Assembly: GCA_026874595.1 (NCBI GenBank)
Contig: CM049307.1
Location: 75,928,643 to 75,992,642 of the forward strand
Length of the DNA: 64,000 nt
Reading direction: 5' to 3'
Origin: Sipunculus nudus
Lineage: Eukaryota > Annelida > Sipuncula > Golfingiida > Sipunculidae
Both the position numbers and the translations under genes were made by a program. Below, one piece after another: positions 20,944 to 62,516 of this stretch. How positions within the stretch are numbered: the first letter of the stretch is position 1; the number at the start of each line of letters is the position of its first letter. The notes below the pieces were generated by a model that saw only the letters and a program-made list of their open reading frames with translations, searched no databases and had not been told where the DNA came from.

Positions 20944-21116
20944 TCATAGTTTACTGATGAGGGACGAGTCCAATTTGCCTGGGTTATCAGCTCCAAGTAG
21001 TACCATATTGCTGAAGAACTCTTGCTGTAAAATTTCAAGGATCATCTCCACCCCCTTCTGACCATTATAAGCGAGTCCGTACCATACGGGGCGTCCAATA
21101 AACACCGCCCGGGCTC
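20944..21116 (-). CDS. Gene A exon 5 (terminal)
   Basis: The acceptor TTCTTACAG leads into [19 protein letters not shown], the conserved C-terminal FMN phosphate loop and helix. It ends LDSSLISKL with TGA at 20944-20946. The paralogues continue for several more residues with a Cys-containing tail instead of SKL. I could not tell whether SKL functions as PTS1. Confidence 0.85.
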
Positions 21117-24100
21117 CTGTAAGAAAAAAATGATTTTATCACATATTTAAAATTATATGTTATTAAAGAAATATAATTTGACCAATAGTAATAGATATTT
21201 GTTTACTCGACAGGATGCGTTGAGGATAAATTTATGCGTTTTTCAATTATTCGTTAGTAAGTGCCAGAGCATGTTATTGAAATAAACGGCAGCACCACCC
21301 TTTCGACAGAGGTAATTTCTACTCAAAATCTCAACTGTCAGACTTTAAAAGCAAAATTTGTTACATTTCAATGAAATAACTTCTGTTTACATTTCACATG
21401 CACATGCTTACAAAATATTACCTTCTTTCTTGAAGTCCCTACAAAAAAAGCCCATGTTCGTGTAATTTGCTTTGAAACAATTCATATCTAATGTAAATAT
21501 TGACAAAACCATTATTATCATGTTTAATAATTCAGAAATTTCCAGTGTCCTAACTTATGCACTGGAGTGCTGGTTTTAAAATACAGTGAAACTCCTACTT
21601 GCGGACAACTCAGTAAGGCGGACAACTCAATAATGCGGACAATAAATCTCAGTCCCTTCAGTTTTGCCTCTATATTATGTTAAACGTAAACACAATAAAT
21701 CGGACAACTCGCTATCCCGGACAACGGACAAACTTTCCCGTCCCGCCAGCATATCCAGTACCTATTACGACCCTTTAAAGCGGACAGACATCGCGAGTTC
21801 TCTTTTGTTCATGTATTTCCGGGAGATGGCGCTCCGAGGTCATGACCTCTATGACCTGTTTTGGTCAAAGCGACAGCCCGGGGACAAGCGTAATTTGGTG
21901 AACCATTGGAAAGTTATATGTAAATATACAATATCGAAATTGTTGTGTACTTCTATAAATGTCTTGATAACACGTAAATAAAATTTATGTAGCCTATTTC
22001 AATTAGGCGCACATTAATGAAGGATATCAGAAACATTCAATGACGAATTGACGCAATATGCCAAACTCCTCTAAATAGGACAACTCACTATAGTCCGTTT
22101 CAGCACCCCTGTCCACCTTTTTTTTCGTGATTATTTTTTTATAATCAAGGAACGTCCAAACTTTTTTATCTAAGGGCAGAAAGAGGAGAAAGCGTAATTA
22201 ACTATTATAGAAATAATAGCGTACCTTATGTAATTTCCTTGTAAACAATTTAAAACCATTTTAGGAGTAACAAGTCTATTCTGTAGCGACATCGTGCCAC
22301 TAATCTGTGATGGTGCATATCAGGGATTAGTGATGACGTCATACTAGACGTGACGTAGTTGTACTAAAGAGGCGCCCAAATTCATTGGACCAATAATCAA
22401 GAGCTGCCGACCCCTGTAAACTTACAGCGAGAATTGTATTCTCCGCGTGCACGCGCTTCACTGTTACCTCACATTACTTTATCTCCATATCCAAGGAGGA
22501 TAAACAATGGCCACTTATTAGGGACGCCATGAACCACGGACACATATGAGATATATCAACCAGGCCGTAAAGTGAATAATATTTATATTTTGAGTAGGTA
22601 AGGTACCAAAAATTACGCTTTTGCCTCTTTATGCCATTGGTGCAAATTTTGTTTTGCAAGTTTGTCTGATGTAGAGATAATCGCGAAAAAACAGGTGGAC
22701 AGGGGTGCTGGAACGGACTATAATACGGACAAAATCATTCAGTCCCTTGAGTGTCCGGCCTCGGGGAGTTTCACTGTATATCTGATAAGTTAAAGAAACA
22801 GCTAAATAACACCATGAAGAGAATAGATAGAATAAATAGTATTTCTCTGGCCACACACCAGAAAATCTGTGAAACCAAATTAATGGCCTTCGTATCAAAG
22901 GTCATGAACGGCACTCTACATCCCCTACATTCAGAGTTCAGTTTTTTCCTTAAGGTTAATGCTTGGATGCAACATTCTGCGGGACAACTCGCTTGTACCC
23001 AACGGATATGGCCGAGGAGTTCCGAATGGGCACATGCCGAACCAGCATGACGGAGGAGTTCGGTTTAAACTGGCACAGGACTTGTTGAAATCAACAGTGA
23101 AATTGTCAAGCACTGCGTGATAATGAACCAGTGCTCCGGGAACAAAACAAGTCACGTTACCATTGTGACGTCATGGCGCCAACCTGGCTGTGATACAATA
23201 CGATTTGCACGGACCTTCTAATAGCGGAATATATTACAGGCCGCTAAAGTCTTGGATCAGGAAAAGATGAGCGAAAAAGGAGCATGATCTCGACAGCCTG
23301 ATGCAAGCTCTCACGGGACAGGATTTTGAAGTTAGAAGAAACTGCCGAAAATAATCAAATTTCAAGATTCCTTCGACTTGCTCGGTCAGTATTTTATATT
23401 TACATCTTATGAAGCATTTATGATTGGCATTGCCTTTAATAGCTTTATATTGGCCAAGGGTAGCCAGTATGAAGACCATACCAATAAAAATTGTAATAAT
23501 ATATTGTGACACGTACCAAGAGCGATGGCCTTTGCGACATCAATGCCCGTCCGTATCCCTCCGTCCATGTACACTTCCGCCCGTCCTTCTACCGCCTCAA
23601 CTATATCCTTCAGGGCGTCTATACTCGCCGGGAGCGAGTCGAGGTTCCTATGTTTAAAGAGGCAAATTTAACAATCAAAATATTTAATAAAACAGTTAGT
23701 GCTCCGGTTGTAGAAAAATTTCGGAACATTTAATGACATTAATCAGACGTGACTATATAGACTGATTTAGTTCATAATTTGCGCTACCGTTGTCCGTATG
23801 CTTCAGGAATAATCCACAATGCATCTGAAACATCCACTCTGTACGTTATTGTGCGTTCTATCGTGCAGCAATTTGTCAATAAGATGCCGATCAACAGGCT
23901 CCTGGCCAATTACATTTCAGTTTACATGCCTTTCATAGGGTTCCACGATTTCATGAAGCAATAAACGCCGAAAAAAATTTGCAAAGGGCTCGGTCATTAG
24001 CTAATTTTCGGGGAGGCCATTCTGACTAATTTTTGGCCATGAGCCAATAAAATGCAACCCAGCCCCCCTTGCCTTCGTGTATGGTAAAGGAGGCTTTTTT

Positions 24101-26107
24101 AACTGAGAGGAGTGGATGAGTGGTTTTTGTTTAAACGAATGAAATGTTACGACTGCGTAAGCATTTTTTAAGGCTAGCTGTAGATGACATTGAATACTTC
24201 TTACTAGAAGTATATATACACCTTACGAGCTGAACTAACATTCCTTGTATTGGTAGTTCAGTTCATGTTTATATGTATAGTTTTTATACAATGCACGATA
24301 TACCCAGTACAAAAAATAATGATCTCAAGAATCAAGTTTGAAATTCTAGGAGAAGAGTAACAGTTTAATTTATATAGCACAAGGGCGCCCCCTAGTGGCA
24401 GTTTTCATGCAAGCAGCCATGTTTGATTAGACGACGGGCTGTTTCTTAGCAGTCAGTTGGTTTCAGACCCAAAAATAAAAAAAAAAATTATAATGTTTCA
24501 GACAATTAATTATTATGTAAACTAGCTGTGGATATACCAATCAAACAGAATAAATGCATTTTCTAAGCAGAAATCATCAAGTCAGAGGGTGAGAAGCTGT
24601 CAGTTAATAAGTTAAAAATAAATTTTTTGTTTGGACATCGGAGTGTATGGATGCCGATGCCACTACACGGAATGTGAGTTCAGCTTGTATCATATATGTG
24701 TATACCGCTGAGTTCTTACAAGCCACCGTGATTGGAGACCCAGATAGCTCTAGCGCCGAGGTCAACTGCGGTCACAGCGTCCTCCGGTCGGAGAATACCT
24801 TTGACAACCACCGGTAGTGACGTCATGTTGATGACCCAGGCCAGATCATCCCAGCTTTGTCCTGGATTATTTGTACTGTATTTCTCCGGTAGAGGTCGTT
24901 CACTGGGAAAGTTAGCCAATTTCAAACCAGGGATCCTCTTGGGTTTATATTTTAATCTAGCGTACCTAACACTTAAACCATGATCATGGTCCACGGAAAC
25001 TACCAGAGCAGTAAACCCCTGTCGTTCTGCCCTCTGGATCAAATCTAACACAACCTCACGATCCTTTAACAAGTCTATTTGCTGCCACAGCATGCCAGAT
25101 GGCGCCGCTGTAGCGATCTCTTCCATACTGCATGATGAGGCTATACTGAAAGCGCCTATCACCTCTCTCTCAACTGCTGCTCTTGCTGTGGCGTTCTCTC
25201 CTTCTGGATGCACACGTCTATGGAATGGATACAGGAATATATGATATAAACGGTGGCTCATAAGTGCCACAGAGAATAGGTTAATTTTTCATCCCGTGCG
25301 CATACGGGTGGGTGTAGTTTCCTTATAGATAAATCCCTCTTTTAAGAGTAGACATCTTTTGTGTGTTTATCCAACCTAAGTTTTTTTGTTTGTATCTTGT
25401 TGTATTCATGTCGTTTTACACCAAATACTCCGGGATAATTTAAAAAAAAAAAGCATCTCAGCTGTTCTTGACCTAGAATTAATCGAATATGACGAATATG
25501 TATAACAACAAGTCCCTTTTTCTTAGGCTTGACATCAACAGTTTCAGGGTTTAGGATGAAGATTAGTTTTAGGGCTAGGGTGTAGGATTATAGATAATCC
25601 CAGGTGCATGCTGGAAAAAACTCTTTTGGAACAGACTATATAGAACATAATCTATTGGAACAGACTAAATAGAAACAAATCATTTGGAACAGACTATATG
25701 ATCAACAAAAACTCTTTTGAAACCGACTATATAGAAAAAGAACTCTTTTTGAACAGACAGTATACAAGAAAAATTGTTGGAACAGACTACATAGACGATA
25801 CTATGAAAGAAGATACAGACTATAGTAGAAGACATGTGCACAAGCAGTACCTTTGCATCCCTGTAGGGGCGATACCGATTGGACACGCGACTTCGCGACC
25901 TAGGATGGTGGTTCTAGTCGTGGCGTTGTTTACACCTCTGAGCACGCGAGGAAGAAATGTATAGCTTTTGAAAGCCGCCATGTTGTTGCGACGTGTTTGT
26001 CCTGTTCCTGCTCCTTCCTCAAGGTGAAGCCACTCTATTGGATCCATTTTCTTTTTAGCCTCATTCTGGATGTCGTTTACGCTCACAACGGGTATGTCAT
26101 CGTTTTC
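20944..26107 (-). CDS. Gene A: divergent 2-hydroxyacid oxidase paralogue (5' partial)
   Basis: Member of the FMN-dependent alpha-hydroxyacid oxidase family (glycolate oxidase/HAO), which oxidises 2-hydroxyacids to 2-oxoacids with O2, making H2O2. The visible coding exons (26107-25851, 25217-24720, 23647-23517, 21116-20944) join in frame with no stop and give 352 residues. FMN-site residues are kept: the Gln of WQQ, Lys of VVVKGIL, Ser/His of WVSNHG, DGGIR and IGRP. Three catalytic positions are not: Tyr24 is His (WLHLEEG), Tyr129 is Asp (QQIDLL) and Arg257 is Leu (HGGL across the exon 3/4 junction). The protein ends in SKL, a canonical peroxisomal signal. An upstream exon is required, because exon 2 opens with an acceptor and no usable ATG, but I could not find it. 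The reading frame looks maintained, so a non-catalytic or altered role is possible. Substrate unknown. Confidence 0.85.
21584..22776. mobile_element. pogo/Tigger-like non-autonomous element in gene A intron 4
   Basis: Perfect 12-base ends CAGTGAAACTCC (21584-21595) and GGAGTTTCACTG (22765-22776) are flanked by TA (21582-21583, 22777-22778). Near the left end GCGGACAACTC-type words repeat, and near the right end is GTGTCCGGCCTCGGGG, as in pogo-type elements. No intact transposase is present. A second element is inserted at 22091-22720. Confidence 0.75.
22091..22720. mobile_element. Second MITE nested inside the pogo-like element
   Basis: Inverted ends TAGTCCGTTTCAGCACCCCT plus GTCCACC (left) and the reverse complement of a right end reading AGGTGGACAGGGGTGCTGGA plus ACGGACTA differ by about one base over 27. 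TA flanks both sides (22089-22090, 22721-22722). It is about 630 bases with no ORF of note. It is younger than its host element. Confidence 0.7.
23517..23647 (-). CDS. Gene A exon 4
   Basis: 131 bases between AACATAG and the donor G|GTACGT. It encodes [19 protein letters not shown] and then [11 protein letters not shown], the phosphate-binding strand of the FMN barrel. It has the same length and phase as exon 4 of genes B and C. Confidence 0.85.
24720..25217 (-). CDS. Gene A exon 3
   Basis: 498 bases between the acceptor CCATAG and the donor TT|GTAAGA. It carries HPEGENATA (sequon), [11 protein letters not shown] (Asp in place of Tyr129), SVDHDHG (catalytic Asp157 kept), VVVKGILR (Lys230) and WVSNHGG (His254). 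The last two bases TT, joined to G of exon 4, make Leu where the family has the substrate-binding Arg257. Confidence 0.88.
25608..25835. repeat. Minisatellite in gene A intron 2
   Basis: About seven diverged copies of a 28-30-base unit of the type TTTGGAACAGACTATATAGA, lying directly beside the exon 2 donor. AT-rich and not coding. Confidence 0.7.
25851..26107 (-). CDS. Gene A exon 2
   Basis: The acceptor TTCTCTTTAG precedes 26107 and the donor AG|GTACTG follows 25851. 257 bases, entering in phase 0 and leaving in phase 2. It encodes the start of the barrel. His replaces the family's active-site Tyr24 in [20 protein letters not shown] matches the family PTAMQ segment. NNATT is an N-glycosylation sequon at the same region as NTTTT in the paralogues. 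Confidence 0.85.
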
Positions 26108-31052: not shown

Positions 31053-34000
31053 TTAGCTCAGCTGACTGTAAGTCATCTGAGCTATAGCGATCACTCTTTG
31101 TCCGTCGTCCGTCCGGCCATCCGACCGTCTGTCCGTTAACAAGGCACAAATCGTAACCGCTGGACCTGGAATCTTCTTACTATACATCCAGAGAGGTCCA
31201 TGAAAAATCTCCTTAGAAACCTGGAATTAGGTCTCTGTTACCCATATCCTTCAAGCTACGGGGCCACAAAGTACTCCCCCAGAATAGTCAAAAATTTCAT
31301 ACAAAAACTTCAATATCTCATTTACTACATCACTGATGGTCATGATTTTTGGCATACATATTGATCATGAGATGTTCCATCAGTTCTTGCAGACTGGTGG
31401 CGCCATCTGTATTTTTTTTTATTTTTTTACGATTCTTTTTCATTTTTTTGAGACCTTTAAAAATGTGGACATCTGTTAACAGGGCACATATCGTAAAGAC
31501 TGGACCTAGAATCTTCATTCTTGTCATATTGTGAGAGCTATGAAAAGTCTCCATGTGACCAGAAATTAGGTTTCTGTTACCCATATCCTTTGAGCTATGG
31601 GGCCCCAAAGTACCCCCCAGAATAGTGACAAATTTCATACAAAAACTTTAATATCTCATTAACTACATCACTGATGGTCATGATTTTTGACATACATATT
31701 GAACATGAGATGTTTCTTCAGTTTCTGCAGACTGTTGGCGCCACCTGTATTTTTCGATTTTTTACGAATTGTTTTCTCTATTTTTGAGACCTTTAAAAAT
31801 GTGCTCATCTGTTTATAGGGCACAAATTGTAAAGACTGGACATAGAATCTTCATTCTTGACATTCTGAGAGACCTATGAAAAGTCTCCATGGAAACCAGA
31901 AATTAGGTCTCTGTTACCAATATCCTTCGAGCTATGGGGCCCCAAAGTACCCCCCCAGAATAGTAAAAAAATTCATAAAAAAACTTCAATAACTGATTAA
32001 CTACATCACTGATGGTCATGATTTTGGCATACATATTGATCATGAGTTGTTTCTTCAGTTTCTGTAGACTTGTGGCGCCACCTGTATTTTTCCAAATTTT
32101 AACAATTTTTTTTCTCTATTTTTGAGACCTTTAAGGATTTAGTTATCTGTCAATAGGGTTCAGATGGTAACGACTGGACCTAGAATCTTCATTCTTGACA
32201 CACAGGGTGACCCATGAAAAGTCTCCATGGAAACCTGAAATTAGGTCTCTGTTACCCATATCCTTTGAGCTGTGGCACTCCAAAGTACAGCTCAGAATAA
32301 TGGAATATTTGATACAAAAGCTGAAGTATCTGAACAACTAATGCAGAGATCACCATAATTGTTTGCATGGATATTGATCATGGAGTGTTTCATCAGTTTC
32401 TGCAGCCTGGGTGCGCAACCTCTATTTTTTTTAAATTTTTTACGATTTTTTTCTCTATTTTGGAGATCTTTAAAAATGTGGACATCTGTTAACAGGGCAC
32501 AAATCGTAAAGACTGGGTCTAGAATCTTCATTCTTGACATTCTGAGAGGCCTATGAAAAGTCTCCATAGAAACCAGAAATAAGGTCTCTGTTACCCATAT
32601 CCTTTGAGCTATTGGGCCCCAAAGTACCCCCAAGAATAGTAAAAAATTTCATACAAAAACTTCAATATCTCATTAACTACATCACTGATGGTCATGATTT
32701 TAGGCATACATATCGAACATGAGATGTTTCATCAGTTTCTCTAGACTGGTGGCGCCACCTGTATTTTTCGATCTTTTTACAAATTGTTTTCTCTATTTTT
32801 GAGACCTTAAAAAATGTGAACATCTGTTAACAGGGCACAAATCGTAACAACTGGACCTAGAATCTTCATTCTTTACACACAGGGAGACCCATGAAAAGTC
32901 TCCATGGAAACCAGAAATTAGGTCTCTGTTACCCATATCCTTCGAGCTATTGGGCCCCAAAGTACCCCCAAGAATAGTCAAAAATTTCATAAAAAAAACT
33001 TCAATATCTCATTAACTACATCACTGATGGTCATGATTTTTGGCATACATATTAATCATGAGATGTTTTTTCAGTTTCTGCAGACTGGATGCACCACCTG
33101 TATTTTTCAAATTTTTACAATTTTTTTCTCTATTTTTGAGACCTTTAAGGATGTAGTTATCTGTCAACAGGGTTGACTGGACCTAGAATCTTCATTCTTG
33201 ACACACAGGGTGACCCATAGAAGTCTCCATGGAAACCTGAAATTAGGTCTCTGTTACCCATTTCCTTTGAGCTGTGGCACTCCAAAGTACAGCTCAGAAT
33301 AATGGAATATTTGATACAAAAGCTGAAGTATCTGAACAACTAATGCAGAGATCACCATAATTGTTTGCATGGATATTGATCATGGAGTGTTTCATCAGTT
33401 TCTGCAGCCTGAGTGTGCCACCTCTATTTTTTTTATTTACGAATTTTTTTCTCTATTTTTTGAGACCTTTAAAATTGTGGACATCTTTTAACATGGCACA
33501 AATCGTAAAGACTGGACCTAGAATCTTCATTCTTGACATTCTGAGGGGCCTATGAAAAGTCTCCATGGAAACCAGAACTAGGTCCTCAGTTAGCCATATC
33601 CTTTAAGCTATTGGGCAAAGTACCCCCCCAGAATAGTAAAAAATTTCATACAAAACTTCAATATCTCATTAACTACATCACTGATGGTCATGATTTTTGG
33701 CATACATATGGATCATGACATGTTCCCTCAGTGTCAGCAGAATGGGTGCGCCACCTCTATTTTTTCAAATTTTTACGATATATTTTCTCTATTTTTTAGA
33801 CCTTTAAAGATGTGGTTATCTGTCAACAGGGTACAAATTGTAACAACTGGACCTAGAATCTTCATTCTTGTCATGCAAGGAGGCCCATGAAAAGTGACTG
33901 TGGAATCCTGAAATTAAGTGTCTGTTAACCATATCCTTCAAGCTATAGGACTCCAAAGTATCCCTCAGAACAATGGAAAATTTGATACAAAAGCTGAAGT

Positions 34001-34286
34001 ATCTGAACAACTAATCCAGAGTCATCCATGCTTCTTTGCATGGATATTGAGCATTAAGTGTTTTTATTAGTTTCTGCAGACTGGTGGAGCCACCTGTATT
34101 TTTTTAAAGTTTACGCATTTTTTTTCTATTTTTGAGATATATTAATACAGACACAATTTCAGCCTGTTGGTTAATCTGTTTGATGCTTCAGTTGAATGGT
34201 TATATACTACCATTTAGATGATAAAATTTCCTTTTGCAAATCTCTTCCCAGTCAGCTGAGCGTCATGACCCATGGGTCACTTGTTT
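31053..34286 (+). mobile_element. Satellite-bearing Helitron/HINE-like element with nine units
   Basis: The head TTAGCTCAGCTGACTGTAAG with CATCTGAGCTATAGCGATC lies at 31053-31090. The tail AGTCAGCTGAGCGTCATGAC, CCATGGGTCACTTGTT lies at 34250-34286. Between them about nine units with a period near 335 bases are marked by GACCTAGAATCTTCATTCTT at about 31507, 31845, 32180, 32525, 32857, 33181, 33519 and 33852, with a diverged first copy near 31163. Each unit also has CTGGTGGCGCCACCTGTATT and ATCACTGATGGTCATGATTT. Open frames inside are repeat shadows that recur each period. Class assignment is by structure only. Confidence 0.65.
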
Positions 34287-38576: not shown

Positions 38577-38782
38577 TTAAGAAAGCTGGCACGTTTCCCC
38601 AACACATGATGGTGGAGTGAGAACGACGGACGGGTCCAGTTTGTAGGGGCGGTCAGCTCCAAGGAGTTGCATGGCGTTTAGGAATTCTCTCTGAAAGATA
38701 TCGAGGATCTTCTCCACCCCCTCCTGACCGCTGTGGGCGAGTCCGTACCAGACGGGACGACCGATAAACACTGCCCGCGCAC
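38577..38782 (-). CDS. Gene B exon 5 (terminal)
   Basis: Acceptor TTGGCAG, then [20 protein letters not shown] to [13 protein letters not shown] and a tail [12 protein letters not shown]. The CVGxxC motif is shared with C and D. No PTS1. Confidence 0.88.
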
Positions 38783-41700
38783 CTGCCAATGAAGCCTGCA
38801 TTATAGTTACAAGTTATAGCGACCGTCGCTAATACATATTTTTATCTTGTTAAAATATATGATTATTTTCACAGTGGGTTGCAGAGGAAGGACCTCCCAC
38901 ATAGCGAAGTACCACACTCGGACGTGTACTCACACAAAATGGGGTGGATATTCCCGCGCAATATGTCAAAGGGATCATACATTAAGATCAGATCAAAGAG
39001 TTAGAAACAATCGACAGTCAAAAACCTGACATTTAAAACACTTTGAATAGACCAAAAACAGCCTATCACAGAGCGTGTTAGGAAATATACAACACTTCGT
39101 CCATGAAGCCAAAACAAACAACGCCTGAGAACACAAAGTGTATATTCAAAGCGATGGATAATAATAAAAATAATAACAACAATAATAATAATAAACTAAT
39201 AGCAGTGCTGCCATACGGCAATGTCGATACATTGTAGTTTAGAAGAGTATTTAACGTCAAAGCTATTCCACTTACATCCTTGTACACTTTAAAGGAAGCC
39301 TACCAAGAGCGATGGCTCTAGCAACGTCCATGCCTGTCCGTATCCCTCCGTCCATGTACACCTCCACACTTCCGTTAACCGCCGCCACCACCTCACTCAG
39401 AACGTCAATGGTCGCAGGAACACCGTCTAGGACTCTACAAATATATTTTGCATGTTTATTTCAGTGTGTTAATTTTATGTTAAACATTTCCGACATTTAA
39501 AAAAGTAGGCTCGGGAAAATAATCTTATCTATATTTGGATCCTGATACCGTAATAAAAAGAATTACATGAACGCTTGGTGTTAACTGTGCAACTTTACAA
39601 GCTTAGCTTGTAAAACAGATGACTTTATGTACACCCATATATGCTGAGAAACCTAAACTGTCGAATTATAACCTAACATCATTCAATTTAAATGTTAATA
39701 TTTGCTGATTTTTAAATGACATTAATATTATCATTCACATATCATTAATTCATATCATTTACAGCATGGAACAAAAATGTAACGGATTGTTTTACATGTA
39801 CATCAATTAGGATATGCTAATGTGAGATATATATTACATTTATCTTATGTATGTATACCTATGGTGTTGTCATCCAGCTTGAAATAATGTTTGTAAGGTT
39901 TGCTTGTGATTGGAGATGTCATAAATAATGAGATGCGTATGGATCGTCCCAATGCATCCGTACTGCTTTGATCTGTTGTTTATATATAGGAATGGCACTC
40001 TCCAGACATGGTGTCGCCATGTTTTTAGTTTCTCATTTTCTCATTTGAACGGGAGTTCAATGATTTTGGCGGGGTTCAGAGTGATATCAGAAATGCATTT
40101 TACGAAGCTGTTATCATTTATCCTTACCGAGCGCCGTGATTTGAAACCATTATTGCGTCCACACCGGCTTGGACCGCCATCTTTGCATCTTCGCCCCGCA
40201 GGATACCTTTAGCGATGATTGGTAGCGTAGTCTGACTCCGTAACCATGACAACTCGGCCCAGTCCTGTCCTGGGTTTACTAACCTTCTCTCAAAGTCCCA
40301 GGTATTATTTGGAAAATTTGGACTCGTTATCTCTTTTGGCCGTCTGGCTAGTCCTTTCATTGATGTGTATCTCACACCCGGCATAGGACGATCGACTGTT
40401 ACAACCAAACCTGTGAAGCCGAGCTCCTCTGCCCTCCGAACGAAATTCAGCGTCATCTCGCGGACTCCAAATAAGTAAATCTGCTGCCAGTGTTTACCAC
40501 CAGGTGCCGCTGCTGCGATGTCCTCCATTTTAATTGAAGCATAAGCACTGTATGTGGCGATCACATTCTTTTCCCTGGCTGCCAATGCTGTGGCGTTTTC
40601 TCCGGCTGGATTTGCCCATCTGGAACATACATTGGCTTGTGTTGCAACAACTATTAAAAAGACGATGCGACTTAGGCTGTTCGGCAATCCGCTGAGACCA
40701 CAGACCGACACCAACGGCATGAAGTTTATTATTTAGAAAGCAACCAAAAAACTTGATCTACATTTCTTTCTCGTGCAATACCTTTCGTGGATAATTCACT
40801 GAACTTCACCGAAACGTTTTTGATATGCATGAACATATCATACTATCCACTCATAAATTATGGTAACTTGTGCAAACATGTCAAAATCTCTGTGTATCAG
40901 TCTGACCAGACAATTTACTTAAGCAAACACGACAAACCTGTGTGTATCAGTCTGACCAGACAATTTACTTGTGCAAACATGTCAAAATTTCTGTGTATCA
41001 GTCTGACCAGACAATTAACTTATGCAAACATGACAAACCCGCGTGTATCATTCAGACCAGACAAATAACTTATTCAACTTGTGTATCAGTCTGACCAGAC
41101 AATTTACTTATGCAAACATGTCAAAATCTCTGTGTATCAGTCTGACCAGACAATTAACTTATGCAAACATGACAAACCCGAGTGTATCATTCAGACCAGA
41201 CAAATAACTTATGCAACTTGTGTATCAGTCTGACCAGACAATTTACTTATGCAAACATGTCAAAATCTCTGTGTATCAGTCTGACCAGACAATTAACTTA
41301 TGCAAACAGGACAAACCTGTGTGTATCATTCAGACCAGACAAATAATTTATGCAAACATGACAAACCTGTGTCTATCAGTCTGACCAGACAATTAACTTA
41401 TGCAAACATGACAAACCCGCGTGTATCATTCAGACCAGACAAATAACTTATTCAACTTGTGTATCAGTCTGACCAGACAATTTACTTATGCAAACATGTC
41501 AAAATCTCTGTGTATCAGTCTGACCAGACAATTAACTTAAGCAAACATTTCAAAATCTCTTAGTATCAGTCTGACCAGACGATTCCCTTATATTAACATG
41601 ACAAACCTGCCTGGCTGTGTGTATCAGTCTGACTAGACCATTCCCTTATGTTAACATGACAAACCTGCCTGGCTGTGTGTGTCAACATGACAAACCTGCC

Positions 41701-44700
41701 TGGCTGTGTGTATCAGTTTGACCAGAACACTCAACTTATGTAAACATGTCATGTATTGATACAGGAGACTCAAGTTTATGACATCATATTGTGTTTCTAA
41801 ATACGTACTTGTGGAAAGCCGTTGGAGAAATGCCGATTGGGCATGAGACCACGTGACCGAGTATGGTTGTGGTGGTGTTGGCGTCCGCCACACCTCGGAG
41901 CATGTGCGGCAGCAGACGATACCTGGAGAACGCCGCCACGTTGTCTCTGAGCGTGTTCTCCGTGGTGGCACCTTGTTCCACGTAGTTCCAGGCATTTCTA
42001 CTCAGGGTTCGTTTCGCAGAATCTCTGAAGTCGAACACGTTCACAATTCGAGTTTGCTGCTCTTCTGTCCCTGGTGACTGCAAGAAGATAGAATGCATTG
42101 GATATAATCTAAAAGGACATCTTTGCTGTTTGTATATCACAATAAGATATTTGATCCGCACTGAAGTTCATTCCAGTCAGGGCTACTTGATCCTGTGGAT
42201 CAATTATGTTAAATGGGTAAAGGTATATCAATTAAGAAAATTATGTAAATGTAAAAACATATTTCACGCCATGTGTATCACCTCAGCCAAGGAGGTCATA
42301 GTTTCACCCATTTTTTTATGACTGGATCCTGGAATAATTACTGAGCATTCCCTTGAAATTTTGTGAAGGAATGAATGGGTTAGAGAAGACCCACCATCAA
42401 ATTCTAATGAGATCCGGATAAAGGGGTGCATCTAGTGTGATCATTTCGTATTGGCGGAGGTAACGCAATTATTAACGGCCTTTCTACCTTTTTCTTGTCA
42501 ACAAAAGTCTTGGATTATTTCCTCACGTGTAGTTGCCAGGAAAACTCAAACACAAAACAACTGACGCCCTTGTTACTCAGTATGCATATACCACGGCGGA
42601 ATGCGCAGCATAAAAATCTCCTTAGAAGATATTTTCGTCCGAAGAATGAACAACAGATGACTCTGATAAGATATATTGTACATATCCACACCTGTAACTT
42701 AAATATCCTACTGAGTCTTCTTTTCTATTAACCAGAATAACGACTGCGCGTTGGTCAGTTGTTTTGTTCCTGGTTTTATCCAATCTTTTTACACATGCAC
42801 TGATGATTATTATAAAGGAGATAAATGAGAGATATATGATTTTTTTTATTTATATTTGTACATGTACATCAACAGGAGGATAATTAAGTTCGGTCATGTT
42901 AATTTGCTTTGTTTGGATTTGTTCCCATGCACCCTTGCGAGGATGCACAAACACTTTATGATCTTTTGAATTGCTATTAATTGGGTTCATGTAGAGGCAA
43001 CGGTCAGACCCGATTTTATCGTATAAGAAGATAACTAGTTATAGGCAAAACAATTTTTTTTATAAATCTAGTGATTTGGGCGCAGGCCTGCGTGTATTGT
43101 GAACTTGTCGAGAGAATAGCCTCTTGGAACGGAAAGGACATAATGTATTGTAGTAGCATCTACATGAAACTGATTCTTTCATGTTTATTGAGTGGGCGGT
43201 CAGTTCAGGAATGACTGTTCACTAATGAAAGTGTTAAGCTGCCCCGTGAATATGATGAATGTGTATCTTTTCAACATCGAAATGTATGAGGATGTCAACA
43301 TACTGTTCTTGGGTGCTCGGTGTTATGCAGTGGTTACATGGTTCTGTCAATGCTATTTGGAGGGACAGGGACAATCATTTTAAAAATCTGTTAACCTGTC
43401 ACAAGAGGTTATCTTGGCCTGATGTGATCAGTAGTGGCTGTATATCCTTTTTTTCAGTAGTGACATAAAATCCTCAGAGCGAGCGCCAAACCTGTAAACG
43501 AGAACTGACAACCATTTGGATTTATGACCGTCTCCTGTGGGACTTGACCTCGGTGTAGTTATGAACCTTCTGGAACTGACATTTGGACTATGTACCAGAG
43601 GCGGTTGTGTAAGAATTTGTTCTTCTGAACTATGAATATTTGTTGAACATGTTTGCAAAGGTTCCTTGTTATTCTGCGGGAAGTAACATATAAATAGTGT
43701 CACGGAATGTCCATATGTGCTGCGTTTTTCTACACAAAGTGAAGGGGAACGGTTAACAAAATTCTTTTGTTTAGGCCAAAAATAAAATCTATGGTTCTCA
43801 GGGACCGCCCGGGTCGATTTTAATCCCCCGCATCAAAAATTTTTATTTTTATTTTCATCTTTCAAGAAGAAAATATTATACAGTTTTGATAAGATTTCCT
43901 GCGGTATGTGGTGCATTTACCCGTTTAGCAAAAAAATCTATTATTTTCATGCTTTGCCCTGATCATATGACATTTTTATTGAAACATACAAAAAAGGTAA
44001 AAATAAACTATCGCCCGCCCGCACGGATTTCTGAAAAAAAGGGCCTGAGAACCATACCTTTTTTTGGCCTTTGTCCATTGTGAAAAGACAAATCATTGGT
44101 ATTTTCTCATTACTGATATGTTTTAAGGGGATCCTCTTCAATCACACTGAAGAGTACTGTAGCATGATTATGTGATGATGTAATGCATGCACCGCGCTAG
44201 CTGGCCCGTGTAACCAGTGGCCAAGACCGGCCCCCAATACCCGTGATAACATAAGTGATGCAAATTAGCCACAAGTGGTTCTAGCATGTATAATGCACCT
44301 GGCGGGGGAGATTCGGGTAACGGTCATGCAGCGTGATGAGGGACAGAAGTGGGCGATAATGGAAAAAAAGCTATTTTGTGTAGGGCCTGGATGTGAGGTC
44401 AAGGTAAAAAAAATATTAGGTGCAAATCTTTCACCTAGGACTGATGTCTCCAAAGGTCAGTTTTTGATAAATCAGCCATATTTTATCTTGCGAAAACACG
44501 GAGAAAGGGAAGAAAAAATTTAAGGGGGGGGGGGAAGAAAAAACTTGTAATCAATGGGGAGGAGGGGGACTGAGAAAGTTCACCCAAAATATTTTGACCC
44601 ATATATTAATGTAGAAATGAACTCATCAATCCTAAAAGGCCCCCCCCCCCCCGTAGTGGCGGCTTTATAAAATACTGGAGTAAAAACTGTAAAATCCATC

Positions 44701-45090: not shown

Positions 45091-45298
45091 ATAATAATAA
45101 TAATAATAATAATAATTCAATCTACACAGAACAGATGTATGTATATATTTGAACGCGGGTGTGAATGTACATAGGCCCTACCGGCTGGCTGCTAGAATGG
45201 TTCGTCCTGACCAGCAACACAACAACTGAGACCAGATTGGTGACCAGGAGAACACATGACAGAACGGCGAGGAACACAAGTAGCCGTGTTACATCCAT
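38577..45298 (-). CDS. Gene B: membrane-anchored 2-hydroxyacid oxidase, canonical active site
   Basis: Five exons (45298-45182, 42077-41809, 40619-40128, 39434-39304, 38782-38577) join in frame to 404 codons. Human HAO1 is about 370, so there is an N-terminal extension and a short tail. Exon 1 encodes [15 protein letters not shown] and a following hydrophobic stretch, a single membrane segment at residues about 5-30. The FMN-dependent oxidase barrel follows. All six catalytic positions of spinach glycolate oxidase are present: Tyr24 (WNYVEQG), Tyr129 (QQIYLF), Asp157 (TVDRP), Lys230 (IIAKGIL), His254 and Arg257 (SNHGAR). It is the paralogue most likely to be active, making a 2-oxoacid and H2O2; substrate unknown. 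Sequons NTT, NAT and NNT fit a lumenal or outside location. The tail [10 protein letters not shown] is not a peroxisomal signal. Start chosen to match gene C; an upstream in-frame Met lies ten codons earlier. Confidence 0.88.
39304..39434 (-). CDS. Gene B exon 4
   Basis: 131 bases, acceptor TTGTAG and donor [19 protein letters not shown] then a [13 protein letters not shown]-type FMN phosphate strand. The first base completes Arg257 with exon 3. Confidence 0.88.
40128..40619 (-). CDS. Gene B exon 3
   Basis: 492 bases, acceptor TGTTCCAG and donor CG|GTAAGG. It carries [23 protein letters not shown] (Tyr129 kept), [12 protein letters not shown] (Asp157), [12 protein letters not shown] (Lys230) and VSNHGA(R). 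Confidence 0.9.
40865..41750. repeat. Compound minisatellite in gene B intron 2
   Basis: About 15 copies of TATCAGTCTGACCAGACAAT, spaced by 30-40 variable bases with TTATGCAAACATGTCAAAAT or ATGACAAACC. A higher-order pattern of about 120-180 bases is visible. It lies wholly between exons 2 and 3. Confidence 0.85.
41809..42077 (-). CDS. Gene B exon 2
   Basis: 269 bases, acceptor TTCTTGCAG and donor AA|GTACGT. It starts [17 protein letters not shown], then [17 protein letters not shown] (Tyr24 kept), then [18 protein letters not shown]. Confidence 0.88.
42277..42470 (+). repeat. Dispersed repeat remnant in gene B intron 1
   Basis: CACCTCAGCCAAGGAGGTCA to GTATTGGCGGAGGTAACG with a GATCCGGATAAAGG core. 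I have the impression that similar short repeats occur in other marine invertebrates; that is recollection, not a search. Confidence 0.4.
43774..44068. mobile_element. About 300-bp MITE-like inverted-end element
   Basis: GGCCAAAAATAAAATCTATG then GTTCTCAGGGA at the left is mirrored by GGGCCTGAGAACCATACC then TTTTTTTGGCC at 44041-44069. It contains GACCGCCCGGGTCGATTTTA. No clear target duplication. It lies in gene B intron 1. Confidence 0.6.
45038..45116. repeat. (TA)n followed by (AAT)n microsatellite
   Basis: An alternating TA tract at 45038-45086 passes directly into about nine AAT units, just beyond the exon 1 donor of gene B (inside intron 1). Confidence 0.9.
45182..45298 (-). CDS. Gene B exon 1 (membrane anchor)
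   Basis: 39 codons ending CAG CCG|GTAGGG in phase 0. Arg at position 5, then about 24 hydrophobic residues including [15 protein letters not shown], then Arg-Thr-Asn-His and serines. The core VLLVTNL.SV.VLL is shared with gene C exon 1, which supports it as homologous coding sequence rather than a chance ORF. The intron to exon 2 is about 3.1 kb. Confidence 0.75.
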
Positions 45299-48926: not shown

Positions 48927-49123
48927 TTAGCATGCTGGTCCAACACACGATGACGGTTTAATAACTACGGACGAGTCCAACTTGTGGGGGCGGTCAGCTC
49001 CAAGGAGTTGCATGGCATTCAGAAACTCTCTCTGTAAGATGTCCAGAATCTTCTCCACACCCTCATGACCGCTGTGGGCGAGTCCGTACCAGATTGGCCG
49101 TCCAACAAATACCGCACGAGCAC
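48927..49123 (-). CDS. Gene C exon 5 (terminal)
   Basis: Acceptor [26 protein letters not shown] to LDSSVVIKPSSCVGPAC and stop. Aligned to gene A, the residues IKP stand where A ends in SKL. Confidence 0.88.
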
Positions 49124-52100
49124 CTGTAGACGAATGTGGAGTAAAAGTGTCGTAAAATGAGGAAAATATTGTGCAGCCATAAGCGACTGGACTAATCGGG
49201 ACATTTAAATTCAATCGATTCAAATAGATCAAATGAAAATACAAATTCTAATGCGATATGATATTTTCAGAAGCAAATGCATCCAATATATATTTCCGAT
49301 GCAATAGTATTTGCCCTTAAATTATACTTTTTTTAACTGATATCAATGTTAGCACATTGTCATTTGTTGTAAATTCCCTGCAAAAATATGGGAAAGACAG
49401 GTCTCAATGGGTTGCTATGAGAATAAAAAAATGCTTCAAAGCAAACCCCGTCGCCTACATCTTTTAGAGTTCCGGAGATTTTACAGTCGTAAATTCCCTG
49501 CAGAATTCACAAAATGGGAAAAGCAGGTCTCAAAGGTTGGATAAGTACATCAGAATTAAGGGTTATGTTGCTTGAAGAAATTGTCGTTTCGCAATAACGT
49601 CTGTGAAGGAAACTGATGGAATTTTTGTATTTTATAAGCAAGCTGACAAATTGCAAATATTCCAAGTTTTTAAGTAATAAAATAAAATTCGCCCGCTCGC
49701 ACCATATAACTATATTTGTTGGCGTGCCCTTATTCATACCCATGGCGATTGCTTTTGCGACATCAGTTCCCGTCCGGATTCCGCCGTCCATGTACACTTC
49801 AGCGCTCCCGTTAACCGCCGCTACGACGTCACTCAGCACATCGAGGGTTGCCGGAACCCCGTCAATAGTTCTACAGACCATAGAAAAAATACCGGTTGCC
49901 ATTTGTTGCTACCGTTTAACCCGTCAAAAGACAAAGAGGACTAAGGTGCTGTTTTGGGTTCGTGAAATTTCTGTTATAGACCGTCACCGTCAAAAGTGTA
50001 TACTAAGACATTAGAATAAATCTAATCATTGTTGCCCTTTTTACTTAAAATATATTTGAACGTTTTTGACAAACAAACAAAAGGTATTCCTGTTATTACC
50101 GATAAAAGAAGGGATCATTTTAATATTATATACATTTTGCAGAACCCTGAACCCCTAAATCTAGGTCATCACACCGGCTGATTCTCAAGTATTTGGGTTA
50201 TATATGATACCTTACCGGACACGTGCATCTTGCGAGCATATTGCTTAAGTGTGTTTATAATTGACATGCGTACTGTTTTTTTCTTTCATGTTAAAAATGT
50301 TATTCTTCCATTTTTGTGGAAAATGTTTCATAAAGTATCACCACATATAGAGTCCCAAGTGACCACTTTTTTTTTATTTTTCTGACTGCATGAAAAGTCT
50401 TTTGGCGTACTGTGTGATTCTCTGATCAAGTTATTTGACTACAGGCATATTATCGTTGACATAAGAAAAAACATAGTGCCGATGAGAACCGCCTAACTGT
50501 TTACAGCTATGGGTTTATAACAACGACCCAAATATGGAAAAAGTCCAAATGTAACCTTAACATTTCATTAAATTGTTTATTATGGTTAAAATATTTTTGC
50601 GACTGGTGTCAATGAGGATTCGCTCAAGACCGAAGCAAAAACCGTTCCCTCGATTTGGGAATGAATGTGATGGTTGAACGTCAGGTAAATAATCTTTGTG
50701 CTTTCGGTTGATTAATTATTGTTCATTCCTCGGATCTAAAAAAATACCCAACAGACGCCAATTTTTCAACATTCTAAAAATCAATTTGTAAACAAGATTT
50801 TACCAGGGTTGTCAAAACGTAAGACTACAGTCAGATTTATTGCCGGGAAGACTGGTCCCCTTACCCTTTTCTTTCCTTATCATAGCCTCCTGTTTATATA
50901 TGGTTGCATTACAGCTAGATCTCAGGTACCGGTCTATATGTCACGAGATGTATACGTTCCCAAACCTTAAAGTACAAATATTTGTAGATTTTGCACATAT
51001 GTCAGCAAGCGATAAGAAAGGGGAGTTACGCAACAACTATACCCGAATTGATAGGTGTGGGTTTCTTTTGTAAAACATTAAACAGATTGCGGAATATTTA
51101 ACCCTGCGTCAATGGAGAAACGCACAACGGCCTGTAGACAAGCAGAAAAGACCACAGCTACAGAAGATGGACTCAATGTCATAAGTCCCTGGTCCATTTC
51201 ATCCCCTCATGTCCGTTTTTTGTTATGAACATTTGTACTAGTTATATTTCAAAGGAGAAAATGGTAGTGAAGGGTATAGAAGATTAAAGGGCCTAATTTA
51301 CAATGAGGTCGTTAAAACCTAAAATTATAATTTCTTTAAGAAAGAAAATTATATGGAAATACGAGAAATCAGTCTACATTTTACAATATATCAGATCCAC
51401 CTATGACAGGCAAAGTCATTGGTCACATGCAAAAAGCAGACCTCAATTGACAGCTGCTGATTGGATGATGTGATGGAAATACTCTAAAAATATGACCAGC
51501 TAAAACAAATATGGCTACTCATGCACGGACACACCTTTGTTAACTCATTGGAGTAACTCGAGAGAAACGAAAGTCGTGAGACATAAACTGGAGATTTAGT
51601 GCAAAGTTCTTTATTGTCACATTAGACTGTCACTTCCATATGCGTTTTTTAAAAGAAAATGATCAAAGAAGAACAAGTGGACACAGTTGATGCAACAAAG
51701 TATAATATGATGATGGAGACGAAACATCGTGCAAACCCTATAAAACCTATTGCCAGCCCTTCCGGCCAAAATCATCCGTTCAGCGTCCACCCACAATTTC
51801 AAAAATGTTTCTTCTCCTTTATATAATGACCGATTGTTCTACCTGATATTGCCAGGTGAGGGCTTTGGAACTTGTACAACGAGTGTTGATATTCATTTAA
51901 CATGCTAATTAATGCAAACATTTTTGTTCAAGGGTTTATCTTTCAAGGGAATATCGGAACTGGCTCCTTAATTTTTGCCAAAACTGTCTATATCTGTCAC
52001 GCATTTTTGGCTGCAATGACAAGGTCAAGGACAGACTTTGCCTGGCTGATTGGATTCTCCACATAGAAGATCTATCAGTGAATTTCAAAAGATCTTGCCC

Positions 52101-53246
52101 CTGCGTGGTTTGGTTGATGATAGTTGTTGGTACAATTAAAAAGGGCACCGCAAAACGGAACATCCCCTCGCACGGGACATAATTAGAATGGTTGTATTAC
52201 ATAGTGTGAACATGAGGAGGGCAGCTCTCTGGCCATGACCTTTGACTCGTGACCCCATAATCGATAGGGGTCTTAGTTTTTGTCAAACGGTTAAGCTTTA
52301 AATGGGACCACAATTTTTTTTTCAAGAAATGGGCCCTGTGGCCGTGACCTTGACCCCGTGATCTTAAAATCGGTAGGATTTTCATCTATGGGTTGCTAAG
52401 CCATATGTGCAAGATGAAAGGTTTTGGTCAAACGGTTTGGCTTGAAATCGATCCATAAGCCAATTCCGGTCGGGCAGACTGACAGATGAGCAGACGGAAG
52501 GACGCACGAACGGAGGCGTTAATATATCCCCTTCGCAACCTCCTTGAGAGACCAACTCTCTGTGATGAAAGTTACCTACACTTAGTGTAACTGCAATATC
52601 GTATTTTCTCAACGCCGCATAAACTCTACGTCACTAACGTTCTGGTTTGATAAGGGCATGAACCGATAAATATATATTTATGATATATATGAAATATATA
52701 GTTGTCTAGAAATATGTCATACTTACCTTGCTCCATGATTCGATACCCAAATAGCGTCAGCTCCAGTTTGGAGAGCTAATATGGCGTCTTCCCTGCGAAG
52801 AATACCTTTGGTGATGATAGGTAAACTGGTCTGGTTCCGTAACCTTTTCAACTCGTCCCAGTTTTGTCCTGGATTTGTCGATGTTTCAGAGGAACTGTCC
52901 GGAAAATTAGGGTACGGAAGGTCTGGCAGTTTTATTAACCCTTTCCGAGGGTTATAATAGTAACCATGCACTGGACGATCTATGGTTAGTACCAATCCGT
53001 TGTAGCCTGACTGCTCTGCCCGCCGGACGAAATGCAACGTCACCTGGCGGTCCCGAAAAAGTCTAAGCTGTTGCCATCTTATGCCACCGGGCGCCGCTGC
53101 AGCGACTTCCTCCATTTTGATATTGGCATATGAACTGATGGTCGCAATAACATTCATTGCCTTGGCGCCTCTTGCCGTAGCGTTCTCACCCTCAGGGTTT
53201 GCCCATCTGTGCAATAATACAAAACTGAATTATATAAAGTGAAATG

Positions 53247-53513: not shown

Positions 53514-54522
53514 AGGAAGTGGATAATAAACATGCTTTTTTCTTATCTGTTTATAATTATTATAAGAAAGGGAAAAGAAGAGGTCAGGTGTACCTGTGCA
53601 TTGCAGTTGGAGAAATTCCAATTGGGCATGAGACCACGTGACCGAGTATGGTGGTGGTGGTGTTGGCGTCCGCCACACCTCTGAGCAGGTGAGGTCTTAG
53701 ACGATACCGGGAGAACGCGGCCTCGTTGTCTCTCAGCGTCTCCTCTTTAGTAGCGGCCAGCTGCACGTAGAGCCAAGCGCTCCTGTCCAACGTTCGTTTC
53801 GCATATTCTTGGTAATTGTACACATTGACAAGACGAGTTTCTTCTTCTTCTGGTGGCGCCGTCTGCAGGGGTGTTTGATAAATTGCATATTAATTATTAT
53901 TCATAATGTTATTTTATCTGTTCATTATTTATTTCAAATTTTTGAATGGTCGATGGATACTGCTCGATTTGGCGATAATTTTGCAATTTCAGCTTATTTT
54001 GGATTACCGAATCCGACACAAGGGAAAAATCAAACAAACGAGAACTATGTTTAAAATATGGGGCTGGATTCACAATGTGAAACCACGCTATCATCGGCGT
54101 GATGACTTTTCTTTGTCTGTGCCTATCCTGGTGGTGAAGCCCAGAGATCCTTGCTATACAAAGCAGCGGTCAAAACAAAAGAAGATATGGATGCGTTCAG
54201 TGTATAATCGATGCGCGAGGAGCGTACCCAGCCACCCGCATGCAGGCAGCTTGGCACTAGTCTAGAACCTTTATTTTGACTAAAGACAGAGCGATCTTGT
54301 TTTCTCTATAGCAGTTACTTCAGCAAATACCGCTTGACATGAATATTATATGGCTCAGTTCAAAATCCAAGTCAATGCACGGCCCAGTTTAAAATCCCAG
54401 TCAATGAACGCGGCTCATGTGCTACATCTTTTTTACTGTTCTTTTTCCATCTGTTACTGGTAATATTTTTATTCATCTTGCGACAAAAAAATGATAAAGA
54501 AATAATTAATTAATAAAAATAC

Positions 54523-54791: not shown

Positions 54792-54995
54792 TCGATATGC
54801 TTTTTATTCTTGTGCTTCAATCTTTGATGTTACATAAATTAACAGCACAAGGAGACTAGCATGGTGAACAATACCTACCTGATTAGATCTTTGCTCTTTA
54901 CTTCTATGTAACAGAACAATGACCGAAATGAGGTTTGTGACGAGCAAAACGCAGGATATAACGCCAAGAATCAGCAGCACCCGAATAACACCCAT
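48927..54995 (-). CDS. Gene C: membrane-anchored 2-hydroxyacid oxidase, Tyr129 replaced by Arg
   Basis: Five exons (54995-54879, 53862-53594, 53206-52727, 49870-49740, 49123-48927) join in frame to 397 codons without a stop. The N terminus MGVIRVLLILGVISC begins a single hydrophobic segment (about residues 4-29), followed by a Ser/Lys/Glu linker and TAPPEEEETR. The oxidase barrel keeps Tyr24 (WLYVQLA), Asp157 (TIDRP), Lys230 (IITKGIL), His254 and Arg257 (SNHGAR), and the FMN phosphate site (DGGIRTG, VGRPIWYG). At the Tyr129 position it has Arg (QQLRLF), shared with D. Family knowledge says Tyr129 helps bind the substrate carboxylate, so specificity may differ. Sequons NTT, NAT, NQT fit lumenal exposure. 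It ends PSSCVGPAC, no PTS1. Closest relative in the window is D. Confidence 0.88.
49740..49870 (-). CDS. Gene C exon 4
   Basis: 131 bases, acceptor GTCTGTAG and donor G|GTATGA. TIDGVPATLDVLSDVVAAV then [18 protein letters not shown]. Confidence 0.88.
52727..53206 (-). CDS. Gene C exon 3
   Basis: 480 bases, acceptor TTGCACAG and donor [30 protein letters not shown] (Arg at the Tyr129 position), [33 protein letters not shown](R). Four codons shorter than gene B exon 3. Confidence 0.9.
53250..53314. repeat. (TA)n/(TG)n microsatellite in gene C intron 2
   Basis: An alternating AT tract passes into GT repeats, between exons 2 and 3. The matching intron of D lacks it. Confidence 0.9.
53458..53510. 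repeat. (GA)n microsatellite in gene C intron 2
   Basis: About 25 GA units. The homologous site in D intron 2 (near 62141) has only a short GAGAGA run, so the tract expanded or shrank after duplication. Confidence 0.9.
53594..53862 (-). CDS. Gene C exon 2
   Basis: 269 bases, acceptor CCCTGCAG and donor AG|GTACAC. TAPPEEEETRLVNVYNYQ, WLYVQLAATKEETLRDN, then [15 protein letters not shown]. Confidence 0.9.
54526..54575. repeat. (TA)n microsatellite in gene C intron 1
   Basis: Alternating TA tract; a second one lies at 54738-54786, both between exons 1 and 2. Confidence 0.9.
54879..54995 (-). CDS. Gene C exon 1 (membrane anchor)
   Basis: 39 codons, donor CAG|GTAGGT, phase 0. The hydrophobic run carries VLLVTNLISVIVLL, matching gene B exon 1 in length and core. 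Basic residues on both sides make topology uncertain by charge alone. Confidence 0.75.
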
Positions 54996-58785: not shown

Positions 58786-58982
58786 TTAGCATGCACCTCC
58801 AACACATGATGACGGTTTGATAACTACAGACGAGTCCAACTTGTGGGGGCGGTCAGCTCCAAGGAGCTGCATGGCGTTCATAAACTCTCTCTGTAAGATG
58901 TCCAGAATCTTCTCCACACCCTCCTGACCGCTGTGGGCGAGTCCATACCAGATGGGCCGTCCAACAAATACCGCACGGGCAC
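58786..58982 (-). pseudogene. Pseudogene D exon 5 (still open)
   Basis: [19 protein letters not shown] to PSSCVGGAC and TAA at 58786-58788. Almost identical to gene C exon 5, so loss of function is recent. Confidence 0.85.
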
Positions 58983-59952: not shown

Positions 59953-60082
59953 CCATGGCGATTGCTTTTGCGACATCGGTTCCTGTCCGGATGCCGCCGT
60001 CCATGTAAACCTCGGCGCTCCCGTTAACCGCCGCCACGACGTCACTCAGCACATCGATGGTAGCAGGGGCCCCGTCAAAGTT
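59953..60082 (-). pseudogene. Pseudogene D exon 4 with one-base deletion
   Basis: AACTTTGACGGGG here against AACTATTGACGGGG in gene C: one base is missing, shifting the frame after the first codon. The donor ATG G|GTAAGT is intact. Confidence 0.85.
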
Positions 60083-61459: not shown

Positions 61460-61939
61460 CTTCCTCCATGATTAGATACCTAAATAGCGTCAGCTCAAGC
61501 TAGGAGAGCTAATATGGCGTCTTCCCCGCGAAGAATACCTTTGGCGATAATGGGTAAACTGGTCTGGTTCCGTAACCAATACAACTCGTCCCAGTTTTGT
61601 CCTGGATTTGTCGGTGATTCAGACAAATTGTCCGGAAAATTAGGTAACGGAAGGTCTGGCCGTTTTGTTAATCCTTTCAGATCGTTATAATAGTAACCAG
61701 ACACTGGACGATCCATGGTCAGTACCAAACCGTTGTAGCCTGACTGCTCTGCCCGCCGGACGAAATTCAAGGTCAACTTGCGGTCCCTAAAAAGTCGATG
61801 CTGTTGCCATCTAATGCCACCAGGCGCCGCTGCATCCACTTCCTCCATTTTCATATTGGAAAAGGAACTGATGGTAGCAAAAACATTCATTGCCTTGGCG
61901 CCTTTTGCCGTAGCGTTCTCACTCTCAGGGGTAGCCCAT
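61460..61939 (-). pseudogene. Pseudogene D exon 3 with two in-frame stops
   Basis: 480 bases with intact splice signals. The frame follows gene C from WATPESENATA to [14 protein letters not shown]. Then TGA (C has GGA) and, five codons on, TAG (C has TGG) interrupt it, followed by VSNHGG in frame. Confidence 0.9.
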
Positions 61940-62247
61940 CTGTGCAATTAATACAAAACTGATTTATATAAAGTGAACTCTCATTAATATGCTTATGTGT
62001 GTGAATTCGTGCGTGTGTATGTTAATTCATCAATGAACAAAGTTTTGCATATTAAATAACAGTTCTAGATGGGAATTGTGTACATGTACATTCGATTTGG
62101 ACAATTTAGTTTTAGAGAATTTTCCATTTATATATGTAATGGAGAGAGAGAGAGATAAGGGGGAGGGGGGGGGTAATAGACATGTCTTATGTTTTCTTAT
62201 ATGTATATTATATTCATAAGGAAGTTAAAATAAGAGGTCAGTTGTAC

Positions 62248-62516
62248 CTTTGCACTGCAGTTGGAGAAATTCCAATTGGGCATGAGACCACATGACCGAG
62301 TATGGTGGTTGTGGTATTGGCGTCCGCCACACCTCTTAGCAGGTGAGGTCTTAGACGATACCTGGAGAACGCGGCCTCGTTGTCTCTCAGCGTCTCCTCT
62401 TTAGTAGCGGCCATCTGCACGTAGAGCCAGGCACTCCTATCCAACGTTCGTTTCGCATATTCTTGGTAATCGTACACATTGACAAGACGAGTTTCTTCTT
62501 CTTCTGGTGGCGCCGT
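62248..62516 (-). pseudogene. Pseudogene D exon 2 (still open)
   Basis: 269 bases, acceptor CCTGCAG and donor AG|GTACAA. TAPPEEEETRLVNVYDYQ and WLYVQMAATKEETLRDN are nearly identical to gene C. Confidence 0.85.

Follow-up and report, generated by a model that had tools for sequence, protein, structure and literature searches.

A branch of the 2-hydroxyacid oxidase family with a probable signal anchor in Sipunculus nudus

Four paralogous genes for FMN-dependent 2-hydroxyacid oxidases (A, B, C and D) lie on the minus strand between positions 20944 and 62516 of the window, by which we mean the whole stretch of 64,000 nucleotides of Sipunculus nudus DNA that was analysed. They belong to a well-supported anchored branch of the 2-hydroxyacid oxidase family, in which a separate first exon encodes a hydrophobic segment ahead of the barrel domain. 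We consider it fairly probable that this is an expanded, signal-anchored clade with the barrel in the lumen or outside the cell, and that B is active, C altered, A perhaps peroxisomal and D dead. Topology, localisation, activity and role are the parts of this reading that we infer. Membrane anchoring is its strongest step, confidence in the orientation is moderate, and activity is predicted from the residues that line the active site.

Results

Gene structures in the window

The earlier note on this DNA described four same-strand paralogues with common intron positions and phases, and a separate hydrophobic first exon in B and C, and both descriptions are borne out (Table 1). The introns of A, B and C are in phase 2 between exons 2 and 3, phase 2 between exons 3 and 4 and phase 1 between exons 4 and 5, and in B and C a phase-0 intron separates exon 1, with its 25-residue segment, from exon 2. 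When A, B and C were scanned against Pfam, each matched FMN_dh (PF01070) end to end (A 3.4e-107, B 9.1e-114, C 3.3e-109), covering positions 1–348 or 1–349 of the 350 in the profile. With canonical splice sites the predicted products are 352 residues for A (counted from its first recognised exon), 404 for B and 397 for C. The four copies are not a uniform set, and that view of them was rejected: D is a pseudogene, whose exon 3 is interrupted by two in-frame stops and whose exon 4 is one base short, and A has a different tail and no anchor exon that could be found. Six other open reading frames in the window matched no Pfam family, and neither the Rfam nor the tRNA scan found anything there. 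The window also contains tandem repeat arrays at 632–2024, 31135–34137 and 35482–35949, with units of 280, 338 and 118 bases, and intron 2 of gene B holds a 50-base minisatellite of ∼15 copies (40864–41684).

Table 1. Exons of the four oxidase genes in the window, and the adjoining region that contains genes E and F
Feature	Position	Strand	Remarks
Gene A, first recognised exon	25851..26107	-	Counterpart of exon 2 in B and C; Y26H
Gene A, exon 3	24720..25217	-	Y132D; Arg263 codon split across the intron, reads Leu
Gene A, exon 4	23517..23647	-	
Gene A, exon 5	20944..21116	-	Ends SLISKL (PTS1-type tripeptide), then stop
Gene B, exon 1	45182..45298	-	Putative signal-anchor exon; 39 codons from the initial Met, with a hydrophobic segment of 25 residues
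Gene B, exon 2	41809..42077	-	Start of barrel domain; Tyr26 equivalent
Gene B, exon 3	40128..40619	-	Tyr132, Asp160, Arg167, Lys236 and His260 kept
Gene B, exon 4	39304..39434	-	
Gene B, exon 5	38577..38782	-	Tail of 12 residues (letters not shown), then stop
Gene C, exon 1	54879..54995	-	Putative signal-anchor exon; 39 codons
Gene C, exon 2	53594..53862	-	First Met at residue 88; the frame upstream of the acceptor has no Met
Gene C, exon 3	52727..53206	-	Y132R and R167Y relative to human HAO1
Gene C, exon 4	49740..49870	-	
Gene C, exon 5	48927..49123	-	Tail PSSCVGPAC, then stop
Pseudogene D, exon 2	62248..62516	-	
Pseudogene D, exon 3	61460..61939	-	Two in-frame stops
Pseudogene D, exon 4	59953..60082	-	130 bases (131 in A, B and C)
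Pseudogene D, exon 5	58786..58982	-	Tail PSSCVGGAC
Region of genes E and F	C2:75992643-76020642		Loci L009-L011

An expanded family in the genome

The genome contains at least 135 exon matches to PF01070. To the right of the window the cluster continues with two intact anchored genes, E (locus L009) and F (L010, with its exon 1 in L011). A second cluster, 16.7–18.1 Mb away at C2:92.67–94.07 Mb (L015–L028), carries intact genes of the anchored family together with many broken copies on both strands, and a single copy on C5 (L014) also has an anchor. Eleven models are intact (A, B, C, E, F, G14, G15, G19, G21, G22 and G24). The intact counts leave out D, G16, G17, G18, G20, G25, G27 and G28, as well as a minus-strand fragment in L016 and the pieces in L026, all of which have stops, frameshifts or missing exons. 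In a tree built from the barrel part all 11 intact models form one clade (100/99), to which L013 (C13:25074000–25083000) is sister on a long branch. The clade is under purifying selection: of 15 pairs compared, 14 are unsaturated, and in these pairwise omega is 0.12–0.38, with 0.17 for exons 2–5 of B and C.

Two further sets of sequences were seen in the assembly. A third group of hydroxyacid oxidases at C2:57.43–58.67 Mb is arranged differently in its exons and, at the positions that were read, carries the usual catalytic residues. One of its copies is L029, for which no C-terminal exon or PTS1 was found in the stretch examined; the other copies of this group (C2:57.4–58.7 Mb) stand outside the intact-model counts. 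In addition, nine near-identical intronless frames of 765 amino acids with an FMN_dh match occur one per small contig (C61, C62, C72, C74, C75, C77, C82, C83 and C89). They look bacterial, and perhaps come from associated bacteria that were assembled with the animal.

A hydrophobic first exon that belongs to the oxidase genes

The exon 1 peptides of B and C (of each, the first 31 residues were recorded; letters not shown) are 59% identical over 37 amino acids (E 2e-10 in the window). A search of the complete 1.43-Gb genome with the peptide of C (E up to 10) gave 12 matching places, and all 12 lie on the same strand as a family exon-2 copy and ∼0.5–3.1 kb upstream of it. Exon 1 thus belongs to these oxidase genes. 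A profile made from nine anchors found two further anchor exons, those of G16 and G24. Exon-2 copies were counted in the window and loci L009–L028, where the upstream flanks of L025 and L028 are short. Of these 20 copies, 14 have an anchor exon upstream, as do 10 of the 11 intact models, the exception being A. An ab initio scan, which looked through 509,016 strand-bases for a Met, a hydrophobic 19-mer and a phase-0 donor with thresholds chosen after the exons had been seen, gave 13 hits representing 10 exons, every one of them an anchor of this oxidase family. Within the window it returned exactly the anchors of B and C, and it missed those of F, G18, G21 and G27.

Exon 1 is itself constrained where synonymous sites are unsaturated. 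Between C and E, 5 of 67 nonsynonymous sites differ versus 11 of 26 synonymous sites, and between G15 and G19 the figures are 2.5 of 67.5 versus 5.5 of 25.5. The corresponding omega values are 0.13 (C–E) and 0.15 (G15–G19), with 0.18 for E–F and 0.26 for G15–G20. An exception is G19–G20 (omega 1.37, with few changes), and for B–C the synonymous sites of this exon are saturated.

These results bear on whether the main transcript includes exon 1 at all. In 3 of the 12 copies examined (B, F and G15) the reading frame has a Met just upstream of exon 2, ahead of its acceptor, and these three may have an unanchored form. Such a Met would also allow exon 1 to be absent from the main transcript and the products to be ordinary soluble enzymes. 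We consider this last reading highly improbable: exon 1 is constrained, its 12 genome-wide matches all go with these genes, and neither C nor E has another Met to start from. Exon 2 of C in particular offers its earliest Met at residue 88, with no other in the frame upstream, and hence a coding exon further upstream is required. The start inside exon 2 that the earlier note named among the findings that would refute its proposal is therefore unlikely for C, and possible for B, which has the upstream Met. We infer that exon 1 is spliced to exon 2 in both genes.

Membrane topology and C-terminal tails

The hydrophobic segment is 25 residues long in all eight anchors scored, with a mean hydropathy of 2.2–2.9, and in B and C the next-best 19-mer of the protein is far weaker. 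The products thus have a single long N-terminal hydrophobic segment, as in type II (signal-anchor) proteins. A negative charge difference between the C-terminal and N-terminal flanks of such a segment predicts that the C-terminal side is lumenal or exterior. Taken over 15 residues the difference is negative in 8 of 8 (−1 to −5), and over the first five flanking residues it is 0 or −1. The topology of the joined proteins, which the earlier note had taken to be lumenal or at the cell surface, is accordingly favoured by the wider measure in every case, and the narrower one gives 0 or −1.

The tails differ between the two subtypes. All seven intact B-type models have a C-X4-C tail and no PTS1; B, C and D share SCVGxxC, with B ending CQLS and C ending GPAC. 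A-type tails end in ISKS (G22), RKMSST (G24) or SKL (A), and A alone among the 11 intact models ends in a PTS1-type tripeptide. Enzymes of the peroxisomal HAO1/HAO2 type carry a PTS1, which B and C lack, and are free of an N-terminal membrane segment, which 10 of the 11 intact models possess, A again being the exception. The conserved C-X4-C tail would suit an oxidising compartment and, with the 15-residue charge difference, favours a barrel that is predicted to be lumenal or exterior.

Two other fates for the segment were weighed. The anchor could be reversed, or sit in another membrane (that of the ER or the peroxisome), with the N-terminus lumenal and the barrel cytosolic, so that H2O2 would be released into the cytosol or peroxisome. 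A basic residue directly after the hydrophobic segment in 8 of 8 anchors and the five-residue charge difference point that way, as does the peroxisomal location of the rest of the family; for zebrafish, Hao1 and Hao2 are described with PTS1 in an excerpt of one paper (PMC8919083). We nevertheless think a reversed anchor unlikely in view of the 15-residue difference in all eight, the C-X4-C tail of the seven B-type models and the retention of a sequon in one loop (below). Alternatively, exon 1 could encode a cleaved signal peptide and the enzymes could be secreted and soluble, a possibility that fits the same exon and the same charge pattern and would equally explain H2O2 outside the cell. The core of a usual signal peptide is shorter than 25 residues, however, and the stretch has this length in all eight; moreover, no good cleavage site was seen at its end when judged by eye. 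Cleavage is for these reasons quite unlikely in our estimation, and a retained signal anchor with the barrel lumenal or exterior is preferred.

Potential N-glycosylation sites

Sequons were said in the earlier note to recur at the same places in the four genes. The NAT of GENATA or SENATA does so in A, B, C and D, but the other sites are not all at the same places: NTTTT is found in B, C and D and the NNATT of A stands two residues earlier in the alignment, and NQTS or NMTS occurs in A, C and D where B has SQTT instead. A further sequon, NGS, is common to B, C and D. Across the 11 intact models, whose rows are mutually related, there are 39 sequons where 20.1 are expected from composition. In 10 of 11 the loop at HAO1 positions 59–61 contains one, located at one of two alternative positions, and this is the retention that speaks against a reversed anchor; positions 92, 227 and 283 have one in 7 of 11 each. 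Such sites were rejected as proof of a lumenal domain: the paralogue L013, whose first Met immediately follows an in-frame stop and which lacks a signal segment, has as many (5 versus 2.0 expected), a point that counts in favour of the reversed orientation, and anchored G19 has 2 versus 2.1 expected. The rows for L013, L012 and L029 are joined pieces with some junctions made by eye, that for L029 being incomplete.

Active-site residues and predicted activity

We compared seven residues, Tyr26, Tyr132, Asp160, Arg167, Lys236, His260 and Arg263 in human HAO1 numbering, which we take to be the catalytic set; the list is drawn in part from passages of PMC9675741 and PMC4908395. All seven are present in B, G15, G21 and G24 (4 of 11 intact models). 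All 11 models retain Lys236, His260 and Asp160, and 10 of the 11 retain Arg263. Tyr132 is changed in seven and Arg167 in four, and those four (C, E, F and G19) have lost both. In C the two positions read Arg and Tyr, and in E and F Gln or Arg and Tyr; position 132 is Asp in A and G22 and His in G14, and A in addition has His at 26 and Leu at 263. Trp110 is replaced in all 11. The stretch between HAO1 168 and 214 is 28–34 residues in the 11 models versus 47 in HAO1, which means a shorter lid over the active site. The position of HAO1 Thr161 is occupied by Arg in the seven B-type models and by His or Phe in the four A-type ones. This Arg lies next to the lost or kept Arg167 and could possibly supply a substitute charge in the pocket.

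The substitutions raise the question of whether most anchored members (C, E, F and G19), together with A, are usual oxidases or are instead binding proteins or enzymes for another substrate. The residues matching Tyr26, Tyr132 and Arg263 form the substrate-positioning Tyr/Tyr/Arg triad of lactate oxidase, as described in part of PMC4908395, and modelling of human glycolate oxidase in PMC9675741 names Tyr26, Arg167 and Arg263 as the main ligand contacts. The divergent genes also remain constrained (omega 0.21 for C–F and 0.22 for A–G22). Set against a general departure from oxidase chemistry are the retention of Lys236, His260, Asp160 and, in all but one model, Arg263, and the four models with complete sets, so that we regard it as doubtful.

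Within the window, the catalytic set is incomplete in C and A, and D is a pseudogene; H2O2 production is therefore plausible only for B. B is likewise the only one of the three readable genes here that we would put forward with confidence as a candidate oxidase. The lumenal or cell-surface H2O2-producing branch proposed in the earlier note is thus retained in part: anchoring of the branch is well supported and the lumenal or exterior side is favoured, but peroxide would be expected from B alone, and A ends in SKL.

Gene A, for which no anchor was found, and pseudogene D

No anchor exon was found between the first recognised exon of A and gene B. A candidate at 29474–29358 was rejected, having no similarity to the anchor profile and falling below the threshold of the ab initio scan. 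In the barrel tree A is sister to the anchored G22 (100/99), and because it is nested there the absence of an anchor represents either loss or a failure to find the exon. Its SKL end, together with the lack of a found anchor, counts against a uniformly lumenal cluster, and A, its active site now altered, may have returned to the peroxisome. The anchor-profile search likewise found no exon 1 for D upstream of it, before gene E.

Discussion

We propose that the 25-residue segment would insert at the ER membrane so that the N-terminus is cytosolic and the barrel enters the lumen, and that the enzyme would then reach the secretory pathway or the cell surface as a type II membrane protein. There B, with its full catalytic set, should use O2 to convert an L-2-hydroxy acid into the 2-oxo acid, releasing H2O2 on the lumenal or exterior side. 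C, E and F keep the fold and the base His260, and with Tyr132 and Arg167 lost their substrate or activity would be changed; A would possibly be back in the peroxisome with its altered active site. As a history of the family we offer, tentatively, that an anchor exon moved a peroxisomal enzyme to the secretory pathway, that this gave rise to at least 10 intact anchored genes, that these split into a branch with the full catalytic set and one without Tyr132 and Arg167, and that A shed its anchor and acquired a peroxisomal SKL end.

The vertebrate enzymes HAO1 and HAO2 share the FMN_dh barrel, and over the domain A, B and C are 41.2%, 43.8% and 46.4% identical to human HAO1. B has all seven of the compared active-site residues of HAO1. 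Unlike HAO1 and HAO2, B and C have an N-terminal anchor exon and no PTS1, and between positions 168 and 214 A, B and C have 28–33 residues whereas HAO1 has 47. The L-lactate oxidase of Aerococcus viridans, a soluble bacterial enzyme, is of the same family, and the highest-scoring PDB chains were two-copy L-lactate oxidase constructs (7f20 and 7f22). Its substrate Tyr/Tyr/Arg triad is kept in B, whereas C lacks the second Tyr and A all three residues.

Escapin of Aplysia is a secreted L-amino-acid oxidase that makes H2O2 outside cells and is linked to defence. The mammalian IL4I1 is another secreted L-amino-acid oxidase for which extracellular H2O2 and a link to defence are described in excerpts of two papers (PMC6149928, PMC4699246). 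The comparison is one of working principle: these enzymes belong to another flavin-enzyme family with another substrate, and no homology is claimed. Among the matches listed in a literature search of limited coverage, no title or abstract opening mentioned an anchored 2-hydroxyacid oxidase from an animal. The present genes would hence appear to be a signal-anchored variant of a known enzyme family for which that limited literature gave no earlier report.

Because 2-hydroxyacid oxidases produce H2O2, they are confined to peroxisomes, where catalase is at hand. If the proposed reading is true, an animal lineage makes peroxide, or clears or senses 2-hydroxy acids such as lactate or glycolate, outside the cytosol. 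On the tentative history given above, targeting would have been switched out of the peroxisome and then back into it within one gene family. The family would in this way provide a natural experiment on the change of protein targeting during gene duplication, and a second one on the joint loss of a substrate Tyr and a lid Arg from a well-studied active site.
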